DNA from: Candidatus Uhrbacteria bacterium
GTDB lineage: Bacteria; Patescibacteriota; Patescibacteriia; UBA9934
Reading direction: 5' to 3'
Length of the DNA stretch: 37,533 nucleotides
Assembly: GCA_943350635.1 (NCBI GenBank)
Contig: CALRAI010000007.1
Span: 1 to 37,533, forward strand
Positions within the stretch are counted from its first letter, which is position 1, and each line of letters starts with the position of its first letter. The notes beneath the pieces are model-generated. The model was not told where the DNA came from, made no database searches, and saw nothing but the letters and a program-made list of their open reading frames with translations. Shown one piece after another: positions 21,483-37,533 of the stretch. A program made the position numbers and the translations under genes.

Positions 21483-21506
21483 GGGGTCAGGTCTTCAATG
21501 TTCAAT
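21483..21506 (+). repeat. 24-bp RAYT repeat, copy B
   Basis: Identical to copy A over 24 bases and in the same direction, 22 bases away. The last codons and TGA stop of the transposase lie inside it. Confidence 0.85.
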
Positions 21507-22349
21507 AGTCTTTTTCAATATCATACTTACACTTGCCGGACTAAGACTCAAAAGTCGTGCAACGGCGATATTCGAATAACCACACGTTTTTATCGCAATA
21601 CTGATTGCGACATTTCGGTCATGAAGACTCATCTCATCTACAAACAGATCGGTCAAAAGTGGTCGACCCAATAATTTTTCTTCCTTTGCATTTTCAGGCC
21701 TTTCTTGAAAGAAATCGTCTGTTTGACTCCATATTTGGGTTATAAATTGAGGAGAGCCGAGCACTCTTCCACGTCCACACTCAAGGAGTGGCGAAGGAGA
21801 ACCGCGCCCTTCAAGAACGAAATCACGATACGTCAATCGAGCATTCTTGCGATCGTCTGCGAAATTCTGCAAGAAATCCTTCGCCGAAAGAAAGGCCTGA
21901 CAACGATCAAGCCCTATCGTTTGACGATAGCTGCTCCAAGGATATTCCTCAGGAAGTTTTACCAATCCAGCACGAACAGGATTGAGAACAATATATCGCG
22001 CAACGGTGAAAAAATACGTTTCCTTTTCTATGAGAAAGGCGGAAAATCGTCCTTGAAGGATATGACCCACCGTTGCATGGCGCTTATTGTATTGCTGGGT
22101 ATATATTCCATTAAGGTCTCGCATTCCTCGGGAAAGCTCTCCGTGAACGGTTTCAACAAGTAAATGATAATGATTCGACATCAAACAATACGCGTAGCAT
22201 TTCCAATGGTATTTCTTAATCATCGCCGATAACGTCCTTAAAAACATCACTCGGTCCGCATCTGAAACAAAAATATCTTTCTTCTGATTTCCACGAGAAG
22301 TGATGTGATACAGCGCTCCTGGGTATTCAATGCGTAACGGTCTGGTCAT
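21495..22349 (-). CDS. REP-associated tyrosine transposase (Y1, IS200-like)
   Basis: HUH single-strand transposase that nicks DNA at hairpin repeats through a tyrosine. The 284-residue protein starts MTRPLRIEYPGALYHITSRGN, the usual opening of this family, and has the HUH motif as NHYHLLV (H60, H62), the catalytic region GIYTQQYNKRH (candidate Y83 or Y87), GHILQGRF, and VARYIVLNPVRAGLV. A C-terminal region with IAVARLLSLSPASVS looks like a helix-turn-helix. It appears intact. A TATAAT box on the minus strand (22359-22364) is 9 bases from the ATG, so expression may be near-leaderless. Compared with IS200 TnpA, the longer C-terminus favours the RAYT group. Confidence 0.93.
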   Translation of the reverse strand: MTRPLRIEYPGALYHITSRGNQKKDIFVSDADRVMFLRTLSAMIKKYHWKCYAYCLMSNHYHLLVETVHGELSRGMRDLNGIYTQQYNKRHATVGHILQGRFSAFLIEKETYFFTVARYIVLNPVRAGLVKLPEEYPWSSYRQTIGLDRCQAFLSAKDFLQNFADDRKNARLTYRDFVLEGRGSPSPLLECGRGRVLGSPQFITQIWSQTDDFFQERPENAKEEKLLGRPLLTDLFVDEMSLHDRNVAISIAIKTCGYSNIAVARLLSLSPASVSMILKKTIEH

Positions 22350-22365
22350 ATATGATCAATTATAC

Positions 22366-22389
22366 ATTGAACATTGAAGACCTGGCCCT
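22366..22389 (-). repeat. 24-bp RAYT repeat, copy C
   Basis: Inverted copy relative to A and B, with two differences (GGCC for GACC and a final T). It lies between the transposase start and the passenger gene stop. Confidence 0.8.
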
Positions 22390-22393
22390 TTTA

Positions 22394-23425
22394 TTACTTC
22401 TTTCGAAACATGATCGGCAATCTACCTTTATATGCAGACCGAATCTGTGCGTCATACTCAGAACCAGCATCGACCGGAATCCGTACAGGAAGAAATGCTG
22501 AAAATCCTGCAGCATCAGGTTTTCTACCGAATGCGAAGCAAAATTGAATCCATTGTTTAAAAAACTGTTCTGGAGAATATGCCTCTGCGTTCCATTCGAA
22601 TCCCGATGTTACCGATGTTCCAACCTGGTCATTGGAAATAACCTTATAATCGATTTTACCTTCGCGAACTCCCTTGACGATAAATACGTCACTTGCCGGA
22701 CCCCGTGTTTCAATATTCCCCTCCTTACATAACACGATAAATTGATCGATTATATTTTTCTGTGCATTTTTCCAATACAATACAGCGCTACCTTCGTGGT
22801 GTTTCAATTCGTTGGGAGCAATACCGAGCGCGATTGCCGTATTGAAAAGTTGAGAAAGTCCGCTTTCGTTCAGTTGCGAAATTCCCTCGATATACACTTT
22901 GAACGCATTTCCGGGAACAGTATCCGACTCCTTTAGTACAAAATACGTTTGGCCGATTGCCGCACCTGATTGCGGAGAATGTTTTTTACCACCCACCTGC
23001 TGAAGAAGCCTTTCTCCAATCGTATCAAATACAAGTGATGCTTGATGCTGTTGATCAGGATCTAACGGCAAAATCCCAGGAGGTAAACGGTCAATCCATG
23101 GTGGCATTGCAATTGGGTTTGGAAGAATTTTTGATACTACTTTTGCTGGAAAAATAAATGATCGTTGAATTCCTGTAAGAAATTCATAATCGGTCACAGC
23201 TTTTCCAGCTTCCAAGTCCATAAACAATGATAATGCTCGTTCGGCACTATCCCTAAACGAATCGGGAGTGTTTGTAGGAAGATTTTTGAGAATATCACGT
23301 AATTTCTCTTCAAGAATACTCACCTGATCCGGCGTGATTGGAGTCCACGATACATCGACAGGCTTTGTTCCGGATAATGGAATCTGCATCGATTCCCATG
23401 AAATATTCTGCTTCGGTCTAGGCAT
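22394..23425 (-). CDS. Unrecognised passenger gene in the transposase unit
   Basis: A 343-residue soluble-looking protein starting MPRPKQNISWESMQI. I recognise no domain. The first half is rich in proline and leucine (LPTNTPDSFRDSAERALSLF, PPWIDRLPPGILPLD); the second half contains mixed alpha/beta-like stretches such as KVYIEGISQLNESGL and FKQWIQFCFAFGRKPDAAGF, and a basic end RLPIMFRKK. There is no signal peptide or membrane helix. It starts 17 bases inside the outer repeat and ends 5 bases before an inner repeat, so it is enclosed on both sides. By eye it is somewhat more AT-rich than the flanking housekeeping genes. It could be cargo or simply a host gene between REP sequences. Confidence 0.6.
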   Translation of the reverse strand: MPRPKQNISWESMQIPLSGTKPVDVSWTPITPDQVSILEEKLRDILKNLPTNTPDSFRDSAERALSLFMDLEAGKAVTDYEFLTGIQRSFIFPAKVVSKILPNPIAMPPWIDRLPPGILPLDPDQQHQASLVFDTIGERLLQQVGGKKHSPQSGAAIGQTYFVLKESDTVPGNAFKVYIEGISQLNESGLSQLFNTAIALGIAPNELKHHEGSAVLYWKNAQKNIIDQFIVLCKEGNIETRGPASDVFIVKGVREGKIDYKVISNDQVGTSVTSGFEWNAEAYSPEQFFKQWIQFCFAFGRKPDAAGFSAFLPVRIPVDAGSEYDAQIRSAYKGRLPIMFRKK

Positions 23426-23467: not shown

Positions 23468-23815
23468 TCAGAAATTTCCCTTCTCTATCTGCACCCGAGC
23501 AATAATTTTCGTGATATCAGCCTCGGGAATCTCGGACTGGATTCGAGCAAGAATCGTTGGGATCATACTGGTAATATCAAACGTTGCTGGAGCATTTGCG
23601 CAACCGATGATGAGAATTCCGGCGGCATAGCTTACGACACAAGCGTCTTGTGCCAATGGAGAATCCGCGACCATTTCTGCAAGGATCTCCTTTGCCCGAT
23701 CAACGATGATAGCTGCAGTAACCTGCTTAGTGATGCCATGGCGCTTCAGTGTGCCTTCCAGCATTCTACTGATCTGTGTGAGCGAGCTTCGGCGACGTTT
23801 AGGCAGTTCTGGCAT
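23468..23815 (-). CDS. DUF721/DciA-like protein
   Basis: A 115-residue basic protein starting MPELPKRRRSSLTQI. The predicted fold and the strand pair ACVVSYAAGILIIGCANAP followed by an amphipathic helix (SMIPTILARIQSEI) resemble the DUF721/DciA family, whose DciA members help load the replicative helicase in bacteria lacking DnaC. The typical tryptophan-containing first motif is missing, so this is a tentative match. The ATG at 23815 lies inside the uvrD-like gene (17-base overlap), suggesting coupled translation. The transposase unit begins directly after its stop. Confidence 0.55.
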   Translation of the reverse strand: MPELPKRRRSSLTQISRMLEGTLKRHGITKQVTAAIIVDRAKEILAEMVADSPLAQDACVVSYAAGILIIGCANAPATFDITSMIPTILARIQSEIPEADITKIIARVQIEKGNF

Positions 23816-26735
23816 ACGGGCAAATGTCTTTAAAGTCGCAGTATTGGCAATGTGGCCCAGGAGTTGCCTCGAACGTGCTCGATCGGATGCGCTGCATACT
23901 GTCCTTAATCTGAAGCTTGAGCTTTTCTTTATCCTTATCCGTAGGCTCAAAACTCACGGCAGTATTCGACTCCAAATAATAATACGTCATTTTCTTCACA
24001 ACGAGTGGCGGCACGAAACTTTCTTCCGCAGCAATCGCATACAGCACCAATTGTCGCCGATCGTCCCAGTCGAGCTTTGTTTTTGGAGCACCAGTTTTGT
24101 AATCGATAATTTCAATACCACCTTCCACATCGTCAATTCTGTCGATTCTTCCTTTGACGAGAATGCCGTCGATCTTGAGCGTAAATCCTTTCTCGATAAA
24201 CTTCGGTTGCGGAGGATTTTCTTTAAGGATCCGATAATATTCCTTCATGATCTCTGTGCCTCGATTTTTGTACTCATCACGTGTTTCATCGTTTGGATAC
24301 CATTCGTCGATCCAGGCTCGATCGTACATGTCGAGCAAATCCTGACTTGTTGGGAGTGTTATCGAATCACTTGATCCGTTGAAGAGCGATGCTTGATGAA
24401 TAGCGCTCGACGCGATGATGCGTTCCATGAATGCCTGCAGCGCGTTGTGCATCGATTTTCCAAAACTCATTTGGTGTTTACCGTACGAAGGAATACCAAT
24501 GATATGTGCGTATTTGTATTGAAGTGGGCACGTACTAAATGCGGCAATCTGCGAGAAACTGATTTTGTCGGGAATATGGATCGCTGCATCGCCGGTCGGT
24601 TTTTTTCCAACTTCTAGCGCGAGAGTGTCAGCAATATTTTCTGGTCGCGTTACGGTTACGGCATTGGTATAGCCAAGCTCGTCTAAGAATCGCGAAACCT
24701 TTCGTTTTCGTGCTCCACCATAATCCTCAGCACTCATTAAATACAATCCTTCTTTTGCACGTGTCATCGCAACGTAAAACAGTCGACGCTCTTCCGCTAC
24801 ATGATCGTCGCCGTCAACCTGGTCCTTCATTAATCCCGGAGGAAAGTCGATTGCTTGGGAACGTGATACTGATGGGAAGCGCTGCTCAACAAGATTGATG
24901 ACGAAGACATATCGAAACTCCAATCCCTTCGATCCGTGTACGGTCATGACCGACACAACATCCGGCCCTTCTTCCGGATCCTGCGCAACGGCACCATTCT
25001 CCCCTGCTGCGCGCTCCGCGTCGAACTCCTCGATGAAGCGCGGAAGCGTGGCGTCGTCATTCATGGCAACAAATCGCTTTAAGCGATTAAAGAAGCGTTC
25101 AAGGAATCGATACAGCTCTTGCTGCTCCATTTCCGAAGCATGCTGACAATCGCCGAGCAATCCCGTTTTTTTCATCATCTCTACAAACAGTTCCGTAATC
25201 GGTAATCGCTTTGCACTGTTTCGAAGTTCCGCAATGCGTTGCTGCAAGTCGATAATCGTGTTTCGACCAACCATCGAGATTCGTGCAGCATCCGCGTACG
25301 TGAGAAGATCGAACAGCGACATGCCTTTTCTGCGAGCATAAAACATCAACGCCGTGAGGTCTTCCTGCGATAGCCCGAGTCGTGGATGCGAAAGAATGCG
25401 ATACAACGACGGCGAGTCGTGCGGCGCCGCGATGACGCGAAGATAACTGAGTGCATCAAGAATAATCGGCATCGTGTACAAGCCGGAAAGCGCCATGAAT
25501 CGATACGGAATGCCGGCGCGCTCGAATGCCTCAAGAAACGGATCCACGTGATCGTTGCCTCGAGCAAGAATCGCAAAGTCTTTCCAACTTGCACCAGATT
25601 CGTCATGAAGCTTCCCGATGGTCTCGATAACCGTCGCTACTTCATCATCCAGCGTAGCGGCATGAATGTGATGAACGTTCCCGGTATGCTCGATATTCGA
25701 AATAAGTTGCTTCGACAACCCTTCGGAAATTTCCAATCGGTGAGGATTATTTTTGGTAATCGATGAATACGCGGTATCGAGGATGGTACGACCGCTTCGA
25801 TAATTGTGGACGAGAACAATTTTTGTGGTATTCGGAAAGTCGGAACGAAATGTAAGGATGTTCGCGAGTGCCGCACCACGGAACTTATAAATCGCTTGAT
25901 CATCGTCACCAACGATGGTGAGATTATTTTTTGGAGCTGACAAGAGTTTCACCAGCTCGTACTGCACGCTGTTCGTGTCTTGAAATTCATCGACGACGAT
26001 GTACGTGAATCGCTTTCGATATTCTGCGAGAATGTTCGGTCGAGTCTTGAAGAGTTCAACGGTGTATGCAAGCAAATCACCAAAATCGAGCGCATCTTCT
26101 GCAATAAGCGTCTGCTGATATGTTTTGTAGGCTTGACCGACTTCCCTGTGCTTCGACCATTCTAATCGCTCTTCTTCTGGGAGTGCATCAAACGCCTCCT
26201 CAGATCCGGCAGTGATCGATGAGATTTGAGCCTCGACATGATCGATGTATTGATCAGGAGTGATTCCTTCATCTTTTGCTCGCGAGAAATGCGAAAGCAA
26301 GAGTTTAAAAAACTTTGTCGGTGTTCCTCGGGGTTTGTAGTAGTCGAGTGTGAAATCGGATAAATGACGACGCATGAATAGCCAGCCGTCGACTTCGGAG
26401 GCGACAGTAAAGTCCTGTGGGATACCAATGTCTACACCGTGTTCTCGGAGAACCATTTCACAGAAGGCGTGAAAGGTGGAAATGGAGAGATCGACGTATC
26501 CCATGGGCAAGAGTACGTCGACCCGTTCTTCCATTTCGTTCGCAGCCTTATCCGTGAACGTTAATGCAAGAATATTCTCTGGCGCTGCCTTACCCTGTTC
26601 GATTAACCACGCAATTCTTTTTGTAATCACCGTTGTTTTTCCTGTGCCGGCGCCAGCAATAATCATGAGCGGTCCCTCGCCATGAGTGACCGCGTGCTGT
26701 TGCTCAGAATTTAACCCCTCGAGGAGATCGGGCAT
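23799..26735 (-). CDS. UvrD-like helicase fused to a PD-(D/E)XK nuclease
   Basis: A 978-residue SF1A helicase with a C-terminal RecB-type nuclease, probably acting in DNA end processing or repair. The helicase has motif Ia-type residues and Walker A AGAGTGKT (27-34), the DEFQDTN box, GDDDQAIYKFRGA, and the late VMTVHGSKGLEF and RRLFYVAMTRAKEGL motifs. The nuclease region has GRIDRIDDVEG followed by IEIIDYKTG. Four cysteines, one in FSTCPLQ and three in CQYCDFKDIC (CxxCx5C), match the iron-sulphur pattern of AddB/AdnB/Cas4-type nucleases. It is a stand-alone enzyme here; no AddB partner is visible. The ATG at 26735 is 25 bases from the hairpin element. Confidence 0.92.
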   Translation of the reverse strand: MPDLLEGLNSEQQHAVTHGEGPLMIIAGAGTGKTTVITKRIAWLIEQGKAAPENILALTFTDKAANEMEERVDVLLPMGYVDLSISTFHAFCEMVLREHGVDIGIPQDFTVASEVDGWLFMRRHLSDFTLDYYKPRGTPTKFFKLLLSHFSRAKDEGITPDQYIDHVEAQISSITAGSEEAFDALPEEERLEWSKHREVGQAYKTYQQTLIAEDALDFGDLLAYTVELFKTRPNILAEYRKRFTYIVVDEFQDTNSVQYELVKLLSAPKNNLTIVGDDDQAIYKFRGAALANILTFRSDFPNTTKIVLVHNYRSGRTILDTAYSSITKNNPHRLEISEGLSKQLISNIEHTGNVHHIHAATLDDEVATVIETIGKLHDESGASWKDFAILARGNDHVDPFLEAFERAGIPYRFMALSGLYTMPIILDALSYLRVIAAPHDSPSLYRILSHPRLGLSQEDLTALMFYARRKGMSLFDLLTYADAARISMVGRNTIIDLQQRIAELRNSAKRLPITELFVEMMKKTGLLGDCQHASEMEQQELYRFLERFFNRLKRFVAMNDDATLPRFIEEFDAERAAGENGAVAQDPEEGPDVVSVMTVHGSKGLEFRYVFVINLVEQRFPSVSRSQAIDFPPGLMKDQVDGDDHVAEERRLFYVAMTRAKEGLYLMSAEDYGGARKRKVSRFLDELGYTNAVTVTRPENIADTLALEVGKKPTGDAAIHIPDKISFSQIAAFSTCPLQYKYAHIIGIPSYGKHQMSFGKSMHNALQAFMERIIASSAIHQASLFNGSSDSITLPTSQDLLDMYDRAWIDEWYPNDETRDEYKNRGTEIMKEYYRILKENPPQPKFIEKGFTLKIDGILVKGRIDRIDDVEGGIEIIDYKTGAPKTKLDWDDRRQLVLYAIAAEESFVPPLVVKKMTYYYLESNTAVSFEPTDKDKEKLKLQIKDSMQRIRSSTFEATPGPHCQYCDFKDICPYARTA

Positions 26736-26900: not shown

Positions 26901-28115
26901 TTATAGGGTCGCGACACTCTGCGCTACAGAAACCGCAAACTGAATTCCTTGTTGAGTAAGCAAATACCCACCAGCGCCGAATGCCGCAATCACGTACAGC
27001 GCTAAAGCGCCGAGAACAAACTTCACCGATCGTGAATTGAGCGGTTCCGATGCTTCAGGATGTGCAGCATCCATCATCGAAAGCTTCGCGCGCACCAGTC
27101 GAACTGCAATAGCAACCAATGCCGCATATACCGCAAGCGCGAACCACAGATGCTCTTGCAATGCGTATCCCACACCAATCAGCGTGCTCACAAAAAGCAC
27201 CGATCCTGGCACAGCAAGCAGCGCAGCAAAGAGAGCCACAGTAAGGAAGCGCACACCATTGTGACGCTTCATCTCAGCATGCTGTACTACCGTCCAAAGT
27301 CCGGCATGAATAACTGCCTGCCCAAAAATATGCAGAATGGCAGGAATAATTCCAGCAGGACCAGCGCCAATCATAAAGGCAACAAGACCAAGCTGTACCA
27401 CGCCAGAAAGCTGAAGCGCAGAAGCGTGCTGTTTCTTTCGATACAATTTGAGGACAACAGCAGCAAGAATGACGAGTCCAGCAATCCAGAAACAGCGCCG
27501 AGTAAACTCGCCACCATCGTTCAATGTTCCGTCAACAATCTGCGCAAATCGGAGAAGCGCAATGAATAATGCAGCTGGAACCATGGTTGCAAAAAAACTA
27601 CTTGCTCGAGTTTTTGCAAGAAATAGTGGAAGAGAACAGATGAATCCAATTCCCGCAAACAATACGCCGTACCGTCGTAAGTCGCCTTGCGCACTTGCCG
27701 AAACCGCATTCTCAAGCAAACGCTGCATCGACACCGCTTCCTGCCACCACAATCCTGAGTGCATACCAGCAAGAACATTCAAAACACTATTTGCAACAAA
27801 ACCCAGGAGCGCGAGGGAAGAAAGAGCGATAAGAATCTTTTTGTGCTTTGCGCTCATGGCTGGAAACGTGTGTTTGAGCAAAAATACCGCACACCCAAGA
27901 AGCACAATATATGCGAGAGTAAGGGCAATAAGGTTATCCGCAAATACCGTTGCCGCAACTGCAAGAACGCTTACTACTCCAAGAATGAGATGCTTTCGCG
28001 ACGGTTTCGATCGCGCAGCCGTAAACACGGTTCCAACAGTGATTATTCCCAATACACCAAGTTCACACCACACCAAGACATCCACATGCCACAACGAAAG
28101 AAAAGCATTCAGCAT
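26901..28115 (-). CDS. NuoN/HyfF-like proton-pumping subunit
   Basis: A 404-residue polytopic membrane protein with about twelve predicted helices. The segment around QLSGVVQLGLVAFMIGAG, then IPAILHIFGQAVIHAGLW, matches the broken-helix region of complex I, hydrogenase-4 and Mrp antiporter subunits, closest by eye to HyfF. The normal H-A-x-x-K-A lysine is replaced by histidine in VIHAGLW, so the proton path may be modified or inactive. It follows the HyfB-like gene by 9 bases. No other subunit of complex I or a hydrogenase is in this window, so its partners are unknown. Confidence 0.65.
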   Translation of the reverse strand: MLNAFLSLWHVDVLVWCELGVLGIITVGTVFTAARSKPSRKHLILGVVSVLAVAATVFADNLIALTLAYIVLLGCAVFLLKHTFPAMSAKHKKILIALSSLALLGFVANSVLNVLAGMHSGLWWQEAVSMQRLLENAVSASAQGDLRRYGVLFAGIGFICSLPLFLAKTRASSFFATMVPAALFIALLRFAQIVDGTLNDGGEFTRRCFWIAGLVILAAVVLKLYRKKQHASALQLSGVVQLGLVAFMIGAGPAGIIPAILHIFGQAVIHAGLWTVVQHAEMKRHNGVRFLTVALFAALLAVPGSVLFVSTLIGVGYALQEHLWFALAVYAALVAIAVRLVRAKLSMMDAAHPEASEPLNSRSVKFVLGALALYVIAAFGAGGYLLTQQGIQFAVSVAQSVATL

Positions 28116-28124
28116 AGAAGAAGA

Positions 28125-29870
28125 TTAGCGGCGAAGTTTTGCAAGCGCACGGTTCCACAGTGCTCTGTATCGATCTCCAACGACAATTTTCCGTGTAACA
28201 CGATGACGGAACGACTCGATAGCCTCAAACGAAGGAATGCGATCAACCCACGATGCACGGAAATACCACAGCACAAGCAAAATTCCCGCAACTGCTCCAC
28301 CGACAACTCCCATTCGCAACGTACCTGCCGCAGTAACAACGCCGCCCTGGAAAGTTCCTGCAGCATCGGTAAGCGGATTCGCCCCAATGGCCAGGAGTAA
28401 TTGAGGAACAGCAAAACCGCTCACAAGCACAACAAGGGCAGAGAAGACGATAGGAATCAGTGCGGCGTCAGTTGGTTCCTGAATTGGTTCGGAATGTGAG
28501 GAGCGTGACACACCAAGAAATACACCTACAAACCATCGAAACGCAGCAACTACAGTCAAGAGACGCGAAAGAACGAAAAGCACCAAAAGCACGATTGCAA
28601 CTATTCCAAATGGGCGAGCAATGCTGGAAGCGATTGTCCCAAGCGTTGTTGCGAGCATCCATGCACTAGTCATGGTAGCGAATGGTGGCGCGCCAACAGC
28701 TCCCGCAAGAAGGATACCGGTTGCAAGCGTAAGCTTTGGCATGTGCTTTGCCCGACCACCGAGGTGTTCAAGCGTTTCGTTATCGGCAGAGAGAAGATTG
28801 CGAACAAGGAAAAGTCCTGATGTTGCAACAGCATTCACGGTAAGTTGGATGAACGCCGCAAAAAGTAATACGTTCATGGCGTCGTACAATGCAAGCGCTT
28901 GAAATGCCATGGCTCCGCCAATCATGAGCGCAACAAGACCAAAATTTTGTACACTAAGCTGCGCGATAAACCGTTTGAGATTATTTTCGCGTATAACGAA
29001 CATTGCACCTGCAACCATCGAAAACACACCAAGAACGAGTACCGGCAGAACAAACCACAGCGACAGCGGAGGAAGAATGAACAAAATACAGCGAATGAAT
29101 GCGTAAAATGCTACACCAGATACCGTGGCACGAAGCATTGCAGAAACATGGGAAGGAATATTGGATGCAACATCCAAAAACCAACGATGAAATGGAACGA
29201 GTCCAATGGAAAGCGCAAAGCCAAAAAGGATAAGGCCATACCCAACGGCAAGCGGAATAGGCTCACTCTGCCCCGCAAGATACGCCAATGTACCAAAATC
29301 ACTAAACAGCGCACCGGCTGTTAACGTAAAAAAACCAGCAGTAATTGCCGTCGTCGAAAGATGTGCCACAAAAAATGCACGTAACGAAAGACGACGATCA
29401 GAAGATTGCGCTTGAGCAAATGTGAATGCAACTATAGCGAGCATCATTATTTCCCACGCAGCAATAAAACCAACAATGTTTCCTGCGAGCACAACCCATT
29501 GTGTACCAATTACGAGTGTCGCAGTTGCAATGGAAAGCGAACGGAGTAATACCTGATCTGATTCATGCTTTTTCCCGTAACTGACTGCAAACATCCCCGC
29601 TGAGGCTATCACGATCGAAATGCCCAAAAAGAAAATGGAACCAAACCGATCGAGCGCGATCGTCATCGAATAAAAAACAGGAGTAACTAAAGTAAACGGA
29701 GCATCCTGAACCGCGCCATATGCGCTAGCTGCTACACCGGCAACGCCAGCAAGCCCAAGAAGCAAGGAGCTCCACCGAAATGCCAGTGGGTTTTTAAAAA
29801 AGAGTGCAATGACGAGTGCAACTGCCGGCGCAACAAGCGCAACATACAAGGAGTTCTCAAATGGGGTCAT
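28125..29870 (-). CDS. NuoL/HyfB-like proton-pumping subunit
   Basis: A 581-residue polytopic membrane protein of the NuoL/HyfB/MrpA superfamily. It keeps the conserved glutamate in AAWEIMML, the IPSHVSAML segment equivalent to the family's A-P-S-x-V-S-A-L-L motif, and ENNLKRFIAQLSVQNFGL with its lysine. The chosen ATG is at 29870; a GTG at 29945 would add 25 residues and leave 6 bases after atpC. The C-terminal tail is basic. It is downstream of the ATP synthase genes on the same strand, suggesting an ion-motive-force role linked to them. Family is confident; the complex it joins is not known. Confidence 0.75.
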   Translation of the reverse strand: MTPFENSLYVALVAPAVALVIALFFKNPLAFRWSSLLLGLAGVAGVAASAYGAVQDAPFTLVTPVFYSMTIALDRFGSIFFLGISIVIASAGMFAVSYGKKHESDQVLLRSLSIATATLVIGTQWVVLAGNIVGFIAAWEIMMLAIVAFTFAQAQSSDRRLSLRAFFVAHLSTTAITAGFFTLTAGALFSDFGTLAYLAGQSEPIPLAVGYGLILFGFALSIGLVPFHRWFLDVASNIPSHVSAMLRATVSGVAFYAFIRCILFILPPLSLWFVLPVLVLGVFSMVAGAMFVIRENNLKRFIAQLSVQNFGLVALMIGGAMAFQALALYDAMNVLLFAAFIQLTVNAVATSGLFLVRNLLSADNETLEHLGGRAKHMPKLTLATGILLAGAVGAPPFATMTSAWMLATTLGTIASSIARPFGIVAIVLLVLFVLSRLLTVVAAFRWFVGVFLGVSRSSHSEPIQEPTDAALIPIVFSALVVLVSGFAVPQLLLAIGANPLTDAAGTFQGGVVTAAGTLRMGVVGGAVAGILLVLWYFRASWVDRIPSFEAIESFRHRVTRKIVVGDRYRALWNRALAKLRR

Positions 29871-29904
29871 ATTGCGCAGTAGGACAAGAGTAATATCGCT
29901 CGAA

Positions 29905-29926
29905 GTGTATGGTGTACTGCATACAC
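29905..29926 (-). promoter_or_regulatory. Hairpin between atpC and the HyfB-like gene
   Basis: A 7-bp stem GTGTATG (29905-29911) with CATACAC (29920-29926) and an 8-nt loop. There is no T-run, so it is not a clear terminator; it could affect mRNA stability or partial readthrough from the atp operon. Confidence 0.35.
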
Positions 29927-29951
29927 GATCAAGGAGTTTGTCCACTGTTTT

Positions 29952-30392
29952 CTACGCTTCTGCACGATGTTGCTTCGACTTTCCCTTCTTCATTGCTACG
30001 CGATATCGGGCCATTTCACGCTCAAGATGCGCGGTAGCGTCTGCAAAGTCGGTTGCGGTACCATTTTTGATTGCCGCTAAACCATCCTCAGCTCGCTGTT
30101 TTGCTGCCGTTATTGCATCGAGTTCAAGTTCATCGCTGCGCTCTGCAGTGTCGGCTAATACTACGATCGACGATCCATCGCGCACCTCAAACATTCCTGT
30201 CGACGACGCAAAATACTCGGTATTGCCGCCATTACGGATGGTCAGTTCTCCGGCCTTCATGAGTGAAAGCAACGGAACATGATGTGGAAGCACAGTAATT
30301 TCCCCCATGTTCGTCATTACCGACACCGAATCAGCCTCGCCTTCTTGGACGACGCGTTCGGGGGTAACAATCTGATAATGGAGTTTTGACAT
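29952..30392 (-). CDS. atpC: ATP synthase epsilon subunit
   Basis: Central-stalk subunit that couples rotation and can inhibit ATP hydrolysis. The 146-residue protein has the N-terminal beta sandwich with TPERVVQEGEADSVSV and GEITVLPHHVPLLS, and a C-terminal helical hairpin (about 85-135) rich in Glu, Ala and Arg. Length is normal. It lies 2 bases after atpD and is the last canonical gene of the atp operon. Confidence 0.95.
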   Translation of the reverse strand: MSKLHYQIVTPERVVQEGEADSVSVMTNMGEITVLPHHVPLLSLMKAGELTIRNGGNTEYFASSTGMFEVRDGSSIVVLADTAERSDELELDAITAAKQRAEDGLAAIKNGTATDFADATAHLEREMARYRVAMKKGKSKQHRAEA

Positions 30393-30394
30393 AC

Positions 30395-32643
<2,249 letters not shown>

Positions 32644-32652
32644 ACGCGAACA

Positions 32653-34545
32653 CTATTTCGTAAACGTGCTCAAAAAGTCTTGAAGCGTTTTTTCGAGTTT
32701 CGGTTTAAGCTCCTTGGAAATTTCTTTTGTTTCCAAAATTTCCTTGAAAACTTCGCCACCAGAGGAATGCATGTATCGCAAACATTCTTCCTCGAAACGA
32801 CCAATATCGGTAACCGGAAGTGCATCGAGCATTCCCGTATTCAACGCATGCAACACAATGGCTTGTTCTGCAAAGTTCATTGGCGAATATTGCTTCTGCT
32901 TCATCAACTCCATCGCTCTGCGTCCGCGTTCGATTTGCTTCTTCGTTGCTTCATCAAGATCCGAAGCGAACTGCGCAAACGCTTCAAGCTCACGGAACTG
33001 CGCCAAATCCACCTTGAGTGTTTTTGCAGCATTCTTCATGGCCTTAGTTTGCGCCGAGCTTCCCACACGGGAAACGGAAAGTCCCACGTTCAGCGCCGGG
33101 CGCTGACCACGATAGAACAAGTCGGATTCCAAATAGATCTGACCGTCGGTAATGGAAATAACGTTTGTTGGAATGTACGCCGATACGTCACCACCCTGTG
33201 TTTCAATAATTGGCAGCGCAGTGATCGATCCTCCACCATGCTCCTCATTGAGTCGAGCAGAACGCTCGAGCAAACGGGAATGCAAGTAAAACACATCTCC
33301 AGGATACGCTTCACGACCTGGTGGACGACGAAGCAACAACGAGATTTCACGATATGCCCACGCATGTTTACTCAAATCATCGTACACAATAAGCACATCT
33401 TCTCCCTTTGCCATGAAGTATTCTGCAATGGCACAACCAGCATATGGCGCCAAGTATTGCATTGCGGCAGGATCCGATGCTCCAGCAAGAACAATTGTGG
33501 TGTATTCCATTGCACCAGCAGCCTCAAGTCGCGACATAATTTGCGCAATCTTCGACTCCTTCTGACCAATGGCAACGTAAATACATTTCACATTCTCACC
33601 TTTTTGATTGAGAATGGTGTCGATGGCAATAGCAGTTTTTCCGGTTTGACGGTCCCCAATAATCAACTCGCGCTGGCCACGGCCCACAGGAATAAGCGCA
33701 TCAATCGCCTTAATTCCTGTGTGCATTGGTACGGAAACCGATTTTCGGGTCATCACGCCTGGAGCAACCTTTTCCACTGGAACCAACACGGAATTGATGA
33801 GAGGCGCTTTCCCGTCGAGAATTTCTCCCAGTGGGCTCACGATGCGTCCAACGATTCCATCAGCAACAGGAATAGAAAGAATACGACCGGTCGATCGCGC
33901 GGTATCACCGGCTTTTACGGAAACCGCATTACCCAACAAAATAACACCAACGGTTTCCTCTTCTAAGTTCAGCGCAACGCCAACCACACCAGAGCCGAAG
34001 TCGATCATTTCTTGACTCATCACATTGCCAAGGCCAGACAATCGGGCAACACCGTCGGACACGCTTTCCACGGTTCCAACGTGCTCTACATTTTGTTCAT
34101 GATGAAATTCATCAATCCCTTCCCGAAGCGCAGTGATAACATCCGTCTTTTTGGTGATTGCACCATCCAAAGCAAACTTCAACCGCTGCAACACGCCGGC
34201 AACGCTTCCGTCGATGCGCTTATCGTCGATGCGCACCACAGCACCACCCATGAGTCGCTCGTCAACGCGTTCTTCAATTTCTGCACCAGGAGCAAGAGCT
34301 TCAATGGCCGTCATCATGCCACGAGTCATTTTGTGCGCAGTAACAACGGTAATTTTCGATGCGCCGAATTTCTTGCGCCATGCGTCGTGAATACCATGTT
34401 CTACCGCGCGCCACTGGTGCATTTGGCCCTTTGCAACAAGATCGTTAATAAACGAGCTGATATGCGTTTCCAATTCCGAAGCGGTCATGTTCTGCACGTC
34501 GTCGATGATAGACGTTGCAAGTGCGTTTGGTGTTGGTTTTGCCAT
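32653..34545 (-). CDS. atpA: ATP synthase delta-alpha fusion protein
   Basis: A 630-residue protein whose C-terminal part (about 130-630) is a complete F1 alpha subunit: [19 protein letters not shown], the nucleotide loop GDRQTGKT (297-304), the [15 protein letters not shown] and [14 protein letters not shown] segments. The first 128 residues match the latter part of the delta subunit (AtpH): [30 protein letters not shown] is the delta signature, preceded by a region that fits the last helices of the delta N-terminal bundle; the first 50 or so delta residues appear missing. No separate atpH gene exists in the operon, although atpF is normal. The frame is continuous without a stop or slip site. 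Fusion would place up to three delta domains per F1 instead of one, unless the protein is cut. Confidence 0.93.
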
Positions 34546-34548
34546 AGC

Positions 34549-35091
34549 TTAGGTAAGTTTGCGCACGACTTCTTCTGCGAGCGATTGCGACTTCTTTTCG
34601 TCCAATCCGTTGGTAACAATTTTTGCTGCAGCACGAACTGCTAAATCTGCCACATCCTTGCGAAGCTTCAGCATACTTGCATCGTGCTCTTGATCCAATT
34701 TCTCCTTTCCAAAACGGATCACACGCTCAACTTCTCGTTTAGCACCTTCCATCATGGCATTCTTGCGAACATCCGTTTCCTTCATTGCAGATTCAATAAG
34801 TGCCTGTGCTTCCTTACGTGCAGCAACAAGTATTGCCTCATGCTCTTGTTCTGAAGCCTTTGCGCGCTCCGCAATAGCGTCTGCGTCTCGCATGCTTTGG
34901 GCAATTTTCTCCTTACGCGCATCGAGCATAGCAAAAATGGGTTTGTATACGAACTTCCACAGCACCAACAACACCAACGCAAAGTTGATGAGCTGTGCGA
35001 GAAAAAGATCCGCCCGTACCCCAAAAGTGCCAAGCACGCCGGAATGTTCTGCGGCAGAAGTAGTTTCCGCCACGAGCTGTTCTGAAGCCAT
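34549..35091 (-). CDS. atpF: ATP synthase b subunit
   Basis: Peripheral stalk subunit. The 180-residue protein has one transmembrane helix (about 28-50, LFLAQLINFALVLLVLWKFV) and a long charged coiled coil reaching the C-terminus. Length is typical of b, without a fused delta domain. It lies 3 bases before the delta-alpha fusion gene, so the b-delta contact is between neighbouring gene products as usual. Confidence 0.95.
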   Translation of the reverse strand: MASEQLVAETTSAAEHSGVLGTFGVRADLFLAQLINFALVLLVLWKFVYKPIFAMLDARKEKIAQSMRDADAIAERAKASEQEHEAILVAARKEAQALIESAMKETDVRKNAMMEGAKREVERVIRFGKEKLDQEHDASMLKLRKDVADLAVRAAAKIVTNGLDEKKSQSLAEEVVRKLT

Positions 35092-35112
35092 ACGAAAAGT
35101 GTTACGAAGACA

Positions 35113-35328
<216 letters not shown>

Positions 35329-35344
35329 TCATGACTGAGCGATG

Positions 35345-35365
35345 GTCGATGAGAAGCTCATCGAC
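35345..35365 (-). promoter_or_regulatory. Hairpin between atpB and atpE
   Basis: A perfect 9-bp stem GTCGATGAG (35345-35353) with CTCATCGAC (35357-35365) and a 3-nt loop, in the gap before atpE. There is no T-run. A role in raising c-subunit mRNA stability or translation is plausible, since the c subunit is needed in excess. Confidence 0.5.
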
Positions 35366-35391
35366 ACACGTCCTGACACGATAGCTTTACG

Positions 35392-36216
35392 TTAGTGAGT
35401 CGCCACTTCATGATGTTCTTCATCGTGGCCACCGTGAGGTGTTGTCGCGATCATGAGATACACAAGCGACAACATGGAAAATACCGTAGCCTGCACAATG
35501 CCGACGAGAATTTCCAGGAAGATAAACGGGATTGGCACAACGTAGGACACCAATCCGAGCATCACGCCCATAAGAATTTCTCCAGCAAGCACGTTGCCAA
35601 ATAATCGAAGGGACAACGACAGCGTCTTTGCGACTTCACCGATGATCTCAATAAATCCCACACCAAACTCGATCACCGCGGTAATAATCGCCATGGGCCC
35701 TTTGCCGAGCGACTTCCAAATCCCCTTGAAATTGACAAACTTGCTGAAATAATCAAATGCACCGACAGCGCGCACACCCGCCATATGGGAAACGACCACC
35801 GTCACCAACGCAAGCGCTAGTGTAAAATTCAGATCACTTCCTGCAGGACGCAAAAGCGGGACAAGCTCGACTTCACCGTGGATTACCTCGTAGATACCAA
35901 TGGTTCCAGTTCCTGGAATTAATCCCAGCCAATTGTTTGCAAGGACAAAGAGAAAAATTGTAGCGATAAGCGGAAAGAACGCTCTCGCCTTTTTTGCTTC
36001 ACCTACCACCTTCTCTATTTCATTCAGTAACGTTTCTACAACAGCCTCGATAATATTGTAGGCACCCTTTGGAATCATCGCCGCCTTCTCTGAAGTAATG
36101 GATGCAATCACACAAAACCCAAACGTGACAATAACCGCATTCACTAAACTATTCGTGATAGGAAACGATCCAACATGCCACAACGGTTCAGCCGCGAGGG
36201 GAACCATTGCGAACAT
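35392..36216 (-). CDS. atpB: ATP synthase a subunit
   Basis: Membrane stator that forms the proton half-channels. The 274-residue protein has about six transmembrane helices, the conserved FPLIATIFLFVLANNWLGLIPG helix, and the essential arginine in SLSLRLFGNVLAGE. The C-terminus is histidine-rich and acidic (HGGHDEEHHEVATH). The ATG at 36216 was chosen because earlier starts overlap atpI heavily: 36249 would overlap it by 62 bases and 36216 still by 29. Another ATG at 36207 is also possible. No Shine-Dalgarno sequence is visible for any of them. Confidence 0.95.
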   Translation of the reverse strand: MFAMVPLAAEPLWHVGSFPITNSLVNAVIVTFGFCVIASITSEKAAMIPKGAYNIIEAVVETLLNEIEKVVGEAKKARAFFPLIATIFLFVLANNWLGLIPGTGTIGIYEVIHGEVELVPLLRPAGSDLNFTLALALVTVVVSHMAGVRAVGAFDYFSKFVNFKGIWKSLGKGPMAIITAVIEFGVGFIEIIGEVAKTLSLSLRLFGNVLAGEILMGVMLGLVSYVVPIPFIFLEILVGIVQATVFSMLSLVYLMIATTPHGGHDEEHHEVATH

Positions 36217-36454
36217 CGGTGTCAATGAGCGTTTGATAGTCTTTGGCATACTGACGAACTTTTTTTACAAGAACCGGGATAGTTAGGAGAAACGTTACGA
36301 GCAGCAATAGTGCTGCGGGGTGATATGTAGAGCCAATGTGCGGCTCTAGATACTTCCCAACAAACCCTGCGAGTATCGCCGGAACCACAATGGTTCCCAG
36401 CAAATCCGCCATGGCAAGCATTGCAAGCCTCACGTATGCGGATGAATTCTCCAT
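36188..36454 (-). CDS. atpI: AtpI/AtpZ-like ATP synthase accessory protein
   Basis: An 88-residue protein with two predicted transmembrane helices (about 7-32 and 44-64) and a charged tail, in the usual first position of the atp operon. AtpI-type proteins help c-ring assembly or magnesium supply. The ATG at 36454 was chosen; a TTG at 36520 would add 22 residues. Identification rests mainly on topology, size and position. Confidence 0.7.
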   Translation of the reverse strand: MENSSAYVRLAMLAMADLLGTIVVPAILAGFVGKYLEPHIGSTYHPAALLLLVTFLLTIPVLVKKVRQYAKDYQTLIDTDVRNGSPRG

Positions 36455-36612: not shown

Positions 36613-37533
36613 CTACATCTGCGCCAGCTCAGCCTCGAGGGCTTCGGCGGCGAGACGTGCGTCTTCCGCCTGTTGACGAGCGAGTTCCGCAGCAGAACGT
36701 GCCGCCTCTGCCCGTGCGAGCAGCTCCGTCCGACGAGCGAGACGAGCCTGCTCTTCGCGCACCAGCTGTCGGTGGGCGATCTCGGCGGTCAGGTTCGTGA
36801 GGTGCACATTCGCGTCAGCGATCTGCACGTCCAGTTCGTCGTCATCCAGCGTGGTGATGTCCGTCGCCGTCTTCGCGATCGGCTCGGGGGTGATGACCTC
36901 GAGCTTCCTCTCGACGGCGGGAACCATCATCTTACCCATGAAGATGCTGTCCTTCACGAACTGCACCGGGCCGAAACCCGGAAAACACAGGAGGATCTCG
37001 CCACCTACGTTGTTCTGGAGCGCGAGGCCCCATCCGTTCTCCGGAAGCGTCTGCTGGTACTGACAGAACAGCGGAACGAAGATGTCCACAACCGGTTCCA
37101 CTTCGCGTGCGCCCCGGTTGGTAAGCCGGTTGAGCATCACCCGCCGCACCGTGGCCGTGACGGACTCGTCCTTGAAGAACGAAAACCCGTCCGTATCCAG
37201 CACGCGCACGATGAGGTCCATCACAAAGCCGGGAACCGCCAGAGGAATACGCTCGCCGATGTGAAAGATGCGGATCTCCTTGTATGGCACCACGAAGGCG
37301 TAGGCATCGAACGTCCCGCCGGGACCGGTGTGATCCACCTTCCGGAGGATCCCCGCCGCGACAAACCGCCTGAGCAAGCGCTCGAACACATCGTGGTTCC
37401 GGCCGAACAGCTGGCCGATCACCGATTTGGCGTACTCTTCCGGATCCGAGTGCTTCGGCATCCGGAACTCGCCCGGGAACACCTGAGACAGATCGGCATC
37501 GATCACCTCCAGAGCGTCACGCTCGTCCTGCGT
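36613..37533 (-). CDS. Unrecognised GC-rich gene with C-terminal coiled coil (partial)
   Basis: Open to the right edge of the window; a GTG at 37506 is one possible start, but the frame continues through the last base, so the gene is probably cut. Three hundred and six residues are visible. The N-terminal part has an alpha/beta feel with FRMPKHSDPEEYAKSVIG and a possible winged-helix stretch VFERLLRRFVAAGILRKVDH. The C-terminal 85 residues are highly charged and Ala, Glu and Arg rich, predicted as a long coiled coil. No family recognised. It is clearly richer in G and C than the genes to its left, and its third codon positions favour C and G. It ends in the strong UUCG terminator. Confidence 0.75.
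   Translation of the reverse strand, partial: TQDERDALEVIDADLSQVFPGEFRMPKHSDPEEYAKSVIGQLFGRNHDVFERLLRRFVAAGILRKVDHTGPGGTFDAYAFVVPYKEIRIFHIGERIPLAVPGFVMDLIVRVLDTDGFSFFKDESVTATVRRVMLNRLTNRGAREVEPVVDIFVPLFCQYQQTLPENGWGLALQNNVGGEILLCFPGFGPVQFVKDSIFMGKMMVPAVERKLEVITPEPIAKTATDITTLDDDELDVQIADANVHLTNLTAEIAHRQLVREEQARLARRTELLARAEAARSAAELARQQAEDARLAAEALEAELAQM

Follow-up and report, generated by a model that had tools for sequence, protein, structure and literature searches.

The window, a stretch of 37,533 nucleotides, is one whole contig of the 949-kb genome of an ultrasmall bacterium from the Uhrbacteria-like order of Patescibacteria, assembled to 97.7% completeness in 54 contigs. All genes discussed here lie on its minus strand. 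The F-type ATP synthase operon (36249-29952) runs in the order atpB, c-subunit, atpF, atpH-A fusion, atpG, atpD and atpC, and is followed by genes for a HyfB-like protein, a HyfF-like protein and a UvrD-type helicase. The genes from atpB to atpD occupy 30395-36249, and the c-subunit among them (35113-35319) is of the proton type by its helix 2 motif. The epsilon subunit gene atpC (29952-30392; PF02823, TIGR01216) is the direct upstream neighbour of the HyfB-like gene (28125-29870), which encodes a NuoL-type antiporter-like subunit of 581 amino acids. A junction of 9 bp (28116-28124) separates it from the HyfF-like gene (26901-28115), which encodes a NuoN/M-type antiporter-like subunit of 404 amino acids. 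The helicase gene (23799-26735), assigned by Pfam and synteny, carries a PD-(D/E)XK nuclease domain. An earlier note on this DNA had placed the two antiporter-like genes directly behind atpC on the same strand, and order, strand and the start at ATG 29870 were all confirmed.

A few other features of the contig deserve mention. The atpH (delta/OSCP) and atpA genes form a single open frame of 630 amino acids (32653-34545, minus strand), while in two congeners (L020 and L022) a stop divides them into separate genes; the arrangement in the window may be a real fusion or an assembly error. An insertion at 21495-23425 (minus strand), consisting of a gene for a Y1 (IS200-like) transposase and one for a 343-residue protein without known family, separates genes adjacent in most congeners. 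Upstream of atpB lies a gene for a 297-residue protein without known family (36613-37506, minus strand) with a long charged C-terminal stretch.

The HyfB-like open frame extends over 28125-29945, and the start common to the congeners (MTPFEN) corresponds to the ATG at 29870. The protein belongs to the antiporter-like family PF00361 (E 3.5e-20, 72.8 bits, cut-off 21.5), and its best NCBIfam model is hydrogenase-4 subunit B (E 5.5e-46), with a score of 157 bits that lies under the model cut-off of 667. The AF2 model of HyfB (mean pLDDT 86) has formate hydrogenlyase (FHL) HycC as its top PDB match (7z0t_C, TM 0.80), and alignments and a tree agree with the assignment; the alignments also show that the lateral helix and TM16 are missing. 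The HyfF-like protein alone gave no significant match in Pfam, NCBIfam or PDB sequence searches, and its place in the antiporter-like family comes from its homologues and fold only. Its homologues in the order are full-length HyfF proteins of 495 amino acids, with E values as low as 5e-19, and its AF2 model (mean pLDDT 80) matches the fold of MrpD/NuoM in the PDB. HyfF is shorter at its N-terminus and around the TM7 break, and in one species of the genus it measures 270 amino acids. The alignments given to AF2 contained no congener or E. coli sequences.

The origin of the pair is evident from the same gene slot in related genomes. Outside the genus, many relatives in the order carry six genes, I-B-C-E-F-G, between atpC and the helicase gene, the left and right borders of the slot. 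Subunit I is NuoB-like, C is NuoH-like, E is NuoK-like and G is NuoCD-like. The five species sampled from the genus have all lost I, C, E and G and keep B and F, with a gap of 9 bp where the relatives have hyfC and hyfE. The identical junction in all five species points to one ancestral deletion. In the HyfB tree, the five genus sequences form a single clade (100/100) that is sister to the full-complex HyfB of one species from the same family (100/99), on a stem of 2.07 changes per column. The distance from the genus to its nearest relative is 2.28 for HyfB and 2.85 for HyfF, compared with 1.12 for atpG and 0.90 for UvrD, that is, about twice that of the neighbouring genes, which lack this acceleration. 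HyfB and HyfF thus descend from an Ehr-type complex. A recent gain, or a novel joining to the atp genes, was ruled out by the shared slot across the order together with the vertical tree. The linkage to the atp operon that the earlier note had pointed out is ancestral, inherited from the six-gene cluster, and it is not strict: in one congener (L021) the pair is separated by about 1.9 kb of intervening sequence from the gene that, by its position and length, is probably atpC.

The missing partners were sought throughout the genomes. A profile search of the window's genome found a single PF00361 gene, leaving no room for an MrpA/D pair. Profiles of HyfI (NuoB-like) and HyfC (NuoH-like), built from relatives in the order, had no match in the five genus species, and the HyfG (NuoCD-like) profile had none in the three species searched. 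Similarly, the Pfam model of the NiFe large subunit found nothing in the five genus genomes, and G060 served as positive control both for this model and for the HyfI and HyfC profiles. Over the same scope for each subunit, no complex I core (NuoB/C/D/H) was found, nor was a group 4 NiFe hydrogenase/Hyf large subunit with two CxxC NiFe-binding motifs. DabA (PF10070), the partner that would define a DabAB system, was absent from all five genomes while controls in named genomes were positive, and the H+-pyrophosphatase, an alternative pump, is absent from the genus. Remnants of C, E, G or I beside the pair were rejected because there is no room for them, with a 9-bp junction and flanks of 81 and 165 bp. 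The full set of six Ehr subunits is present in relatives from the order, and the genus retains B and F only. In a sample of 381 genomes of the class, HyfB occurs practically always with HyfG, the exceptions being the genus and one weak match (G323). The whole-genome partner search, set beforehand as the check that could overturn the earlier note, yielded no complete hydrogenase-4 or complex I operon, so that its remark on the lack of other complex I or hydrogenase genes nearby extends to the whole genome.

The parent complex is itself unusual. The six-subunit CPR Ehr-type cluster is found in L125-L177 (for example L125:3399-10557, L136 and L158), and in 23 of the 53 loci it follows atpD/atpC. 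All four N2-cluster cysteines are absent from its NuoB-like small subunit in 42 of 42 sequences, and a complete NiFe CxxC at the ligand columns of the large subunit occurs in none of 47 full-complex relatives. The Lys and Glu residues of its antiporter modules are intact. As the parent complex has no redox centre, it must be driven by something other than electron transfer via NiFe or N2. Ehr complexes without NiFe ligands were already known (PMC6349859). Jaffe et al. 2020 (PMC7304191) described the large subunit of CPR Ehr as monophyletic and devoid of metal-binding cysteines, and their main text reports the cysteine loss for this subunit only. Beyond that main text, nothing on atp-linked Ehr clusters or two-subunit remnants in CPR was found in the searchable literature. 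As far as searchable papers go, the loss of the N2 cysteines in CPR, the position of the cluster behind atpD/atpC and the two-gene remnant are new. The label "undescribed" given by the earlier note therefore holds, within those papers, for the remnant and its redox-free parent, but not for a gradient-making pump.

Some variation was seen among these clusters. In Moranbacteria (L135-L147, L168, L169) hyfC and hyfE apparently form one fused frame of about 530 amino acids, and in L152, a MAG labelled 'Acidobacteria', HyfC and HyfG frames of 970-975 amino acids suggest further fusions. CPR-type HyfG with 57-59% identity also occurs in 'Acidobacteria' MAGs (L148, L150, L152) and a 'Micavibrio' MAG (L175), which may reflect transfer or mis-binned contigs.

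The residues of the canonical proton path were compared between the five genus species and full-complex relatives (43 HyfB and 47 HyfF sequences), with E. coli NuoL/M/N and HyfB included in the alignment. The HyfB TM5 Glu is present in 42 of 43 relatives and in one of the five genus species, that of the window. The TM7 Lys (43/43), TM8 Lys (42/43) and TM12 Glu (42/43) of the relatives are all missing from genus HyfB. In HyfF, the TM5 Glu (47/47 in relatives) occurs in none of the genus sequences, one of which has a gap at this position; the TM7 Lys (46/47) is likewise gone from all five, together with the HTWLPDAHSKT break, and the TM12 Glu (46/47) persists in two of five. In the HxxxHALxK stretch, the conserved Lys (HyfF residue 340 of L125) is replaced by His in four species and by Gln in one. 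The earlier note had rightly seen His in place of a key Lys in HyfF, which turns out to be one among many losses; Arg189, Asp195 and His262 are retained, the last in all five species. Neither protein thus carries the relay of TM5 Glu, TM7 Lys, TM8 Lys/His and TM12 Lys/Glu. In isolated antiporter modules of complex I, a single replacement of the middle Lys or the terminal Glu/Lys abolishes proton conduction (PMC11496545). Judged by these residues, the genus pair probably does not pump by the known proton path. An "orphan pump pair" had been proposed; the two genes are indeed orphans, without partners in the genome, but nearly all the key residues of a pump are absent. The further suggestion that the pair makes or uses a proton gradient fares poorly, with conduction-essential residues gone from HyfB in all five species and largely gone from HyfF.

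Despite these losses, both genes are maintained. Estimates of dN/dS are 0.09-0.16 for HyfB and 0.11-0.29 for HyfF, compared with 0.09-0.18 for the MreC-position gene and 0.01-0.04 for atpD, all of them rough values since dS is saturated. Third codon positions of B and F are near saturation (identity 0.31-0.46) whereas second positions retain an identity of 0.63-0.87; both frames are open in all five species and the pair contains genus-specific invariant motifs. The site of conservation has shifted. In the full-complex relatives TM5-8 are most conserved, whereas in the genus it is the non-cytoplasmic loops: the conservation of loop 14-15 is 0.88 in the genus against 0.28 in relatives, and that of loop 6-7 is 0.88 against 0.45. 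These loops are assigned to the outward side because of the positive-inside rule in the pair's own sequence, with K+R counts of 23 vs 3 and 15 vs 1. As read from the sequences, purifying selection acts on both genes in the five species, because dN/dS is about 0.1-0.3, the frames are open in all five and the outward loops are conserved. Pseudogenes were ruled out by the codon-position divergence together with the open frames.

Collectively, the pair is probably a two-subunit remnant of an Ehr-type membrane arm and probably serves, at the outer face, some purpose other than pumping. In an ancestor of the genus, the slot between atpC and the helicase gene held the genes of an Ehr-type complex (hydrogenase-4-like, from the complex I superfamily); I, C, E and G were deleted, apparently once, and the antiporter-like B and F were retained. 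The two proteins, which would have been freed from pumping, lost the buried Glu/Lys relay, the lateral helix of HyfB and the broken part of TM7 in HyfF, and their outward-facing loops became their most conserved parts. We infer that B and F most likely assemble as a heterodimer in the membrane, which is made with the ATP synthase and performs no canonical proton pumping; its retained role on the outer face may be structural, binding or non-proton transport. Several points weigh against this reading. The overall fold persists (TM-scores 0.7-0.8), and therefore conduction along a water-filled path is conceivable; HyfF retains the residues named above, with His for Lys in four of five species, and HyfB of the window keeps the TM5 Glu. 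Further, the conservation of the outward loops may merely reflect contacts between B and F, and a deleted subunit could have diverged past detection in a genome that is not closed.

The main rival, which is unlikely, is a minimal ion conductor, in which the stripped modules would pass H+ or another ion non-canonically, as a gated leak or an exchanger that adjusts the gradient used by the ATP synthase. Proton conduction in the absence of the redox arm is known from isolated Nqo12 and Nqo13 modules (PMC11496545), and the retained fold, the neighbouring proton-type ATP synthase, the invariant His262 and the His at the Lys position fit such a role. However, the middle Lys and terminal Glu/Lys, essential in isolated modules, are gone from every genus HyfB, one congener has Gln instead of the His, and the ion-pair Glu is gone from four of five HyfB and from all HyfF proteins. 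A relic in slow decay, in which the partners are gone and drift would remove a functionless pair as in sister genera, would agree with the lack of a homologue in most other genera of the family, the fast evolution and the shortened HyfF, but is rendered improbable by frames that stay open while third codon positions near saturation, by the low dN/dS, the identical 9-bp spacing and the invariant motifs. Finally, it is hardly credible that the two were displaced from a complete complex I, hydrogenase, Mrp or DabAB system encoded at another site of the genome: nothing was found in favour of this beyond the small gap left by 97.7% completeness and 54 contigs, and the single PF00361 match and the empty searches for HyfI, HyfC, DabA and the NiFe large subunit in this genome and four congeners, and for HyfG in three species, stand against it.

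A more specific form of the remnant reading is that an arm of the complex I superfamily was turned into a non-pumping, outward-facing partner of FoF1, produced together with it and serving, for instance, as a scaffold, gate or regulator. The first of two steps would have removed every redox centre in CPR, and the second all but two subunits and the proton relay; this reading is offered as a long shot.

Among known systems, Ehr (Rhodococcus plasmid pRZP3, Bradyrhizobium, Methylocalor and CPR Ehr) is the ancestor type of the pair, with the same slot in the order and a Rhodococcus gene order equal to that of the CPR cluster. The genus differs in having two of six subunits and no canonical proton path, and its parent CPR complex differs in lacking the N2-cluster cysteines that the Ehr of Rhodococcus, Bradyrhizobium and Methylocalor retain. 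Hydrogenase-4/FHL (E. coli HyfB-I, HycC; PDB 7z0s/7z0t) provides the best structural match of HyfB and the best family models, but the genus lacks its catalytic, iron-sulfur and NuoH-like subunits, the NiFe ligands and the lateral helix. The Mrp antiporter and DabAB similarly use PF00361-fold proteins outside a redox complex, but here the PF00361 gene is single, DabA is missing and the ion-path residues of the pair are lost.

The genus offers a case, replicated in five species, of what selection retains once a relative of complex I is dismantled, and close relatives, which carry the intact complex in this slot, provide the control for the remnant. The parent six-subunit complex of Uhr-, Moran- and Kaiserbacteria has intact proton-path residues and no redox centre. 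With it, whether antiporter-like modules can be used or driven without redox chemistry becomes a directly testable question.
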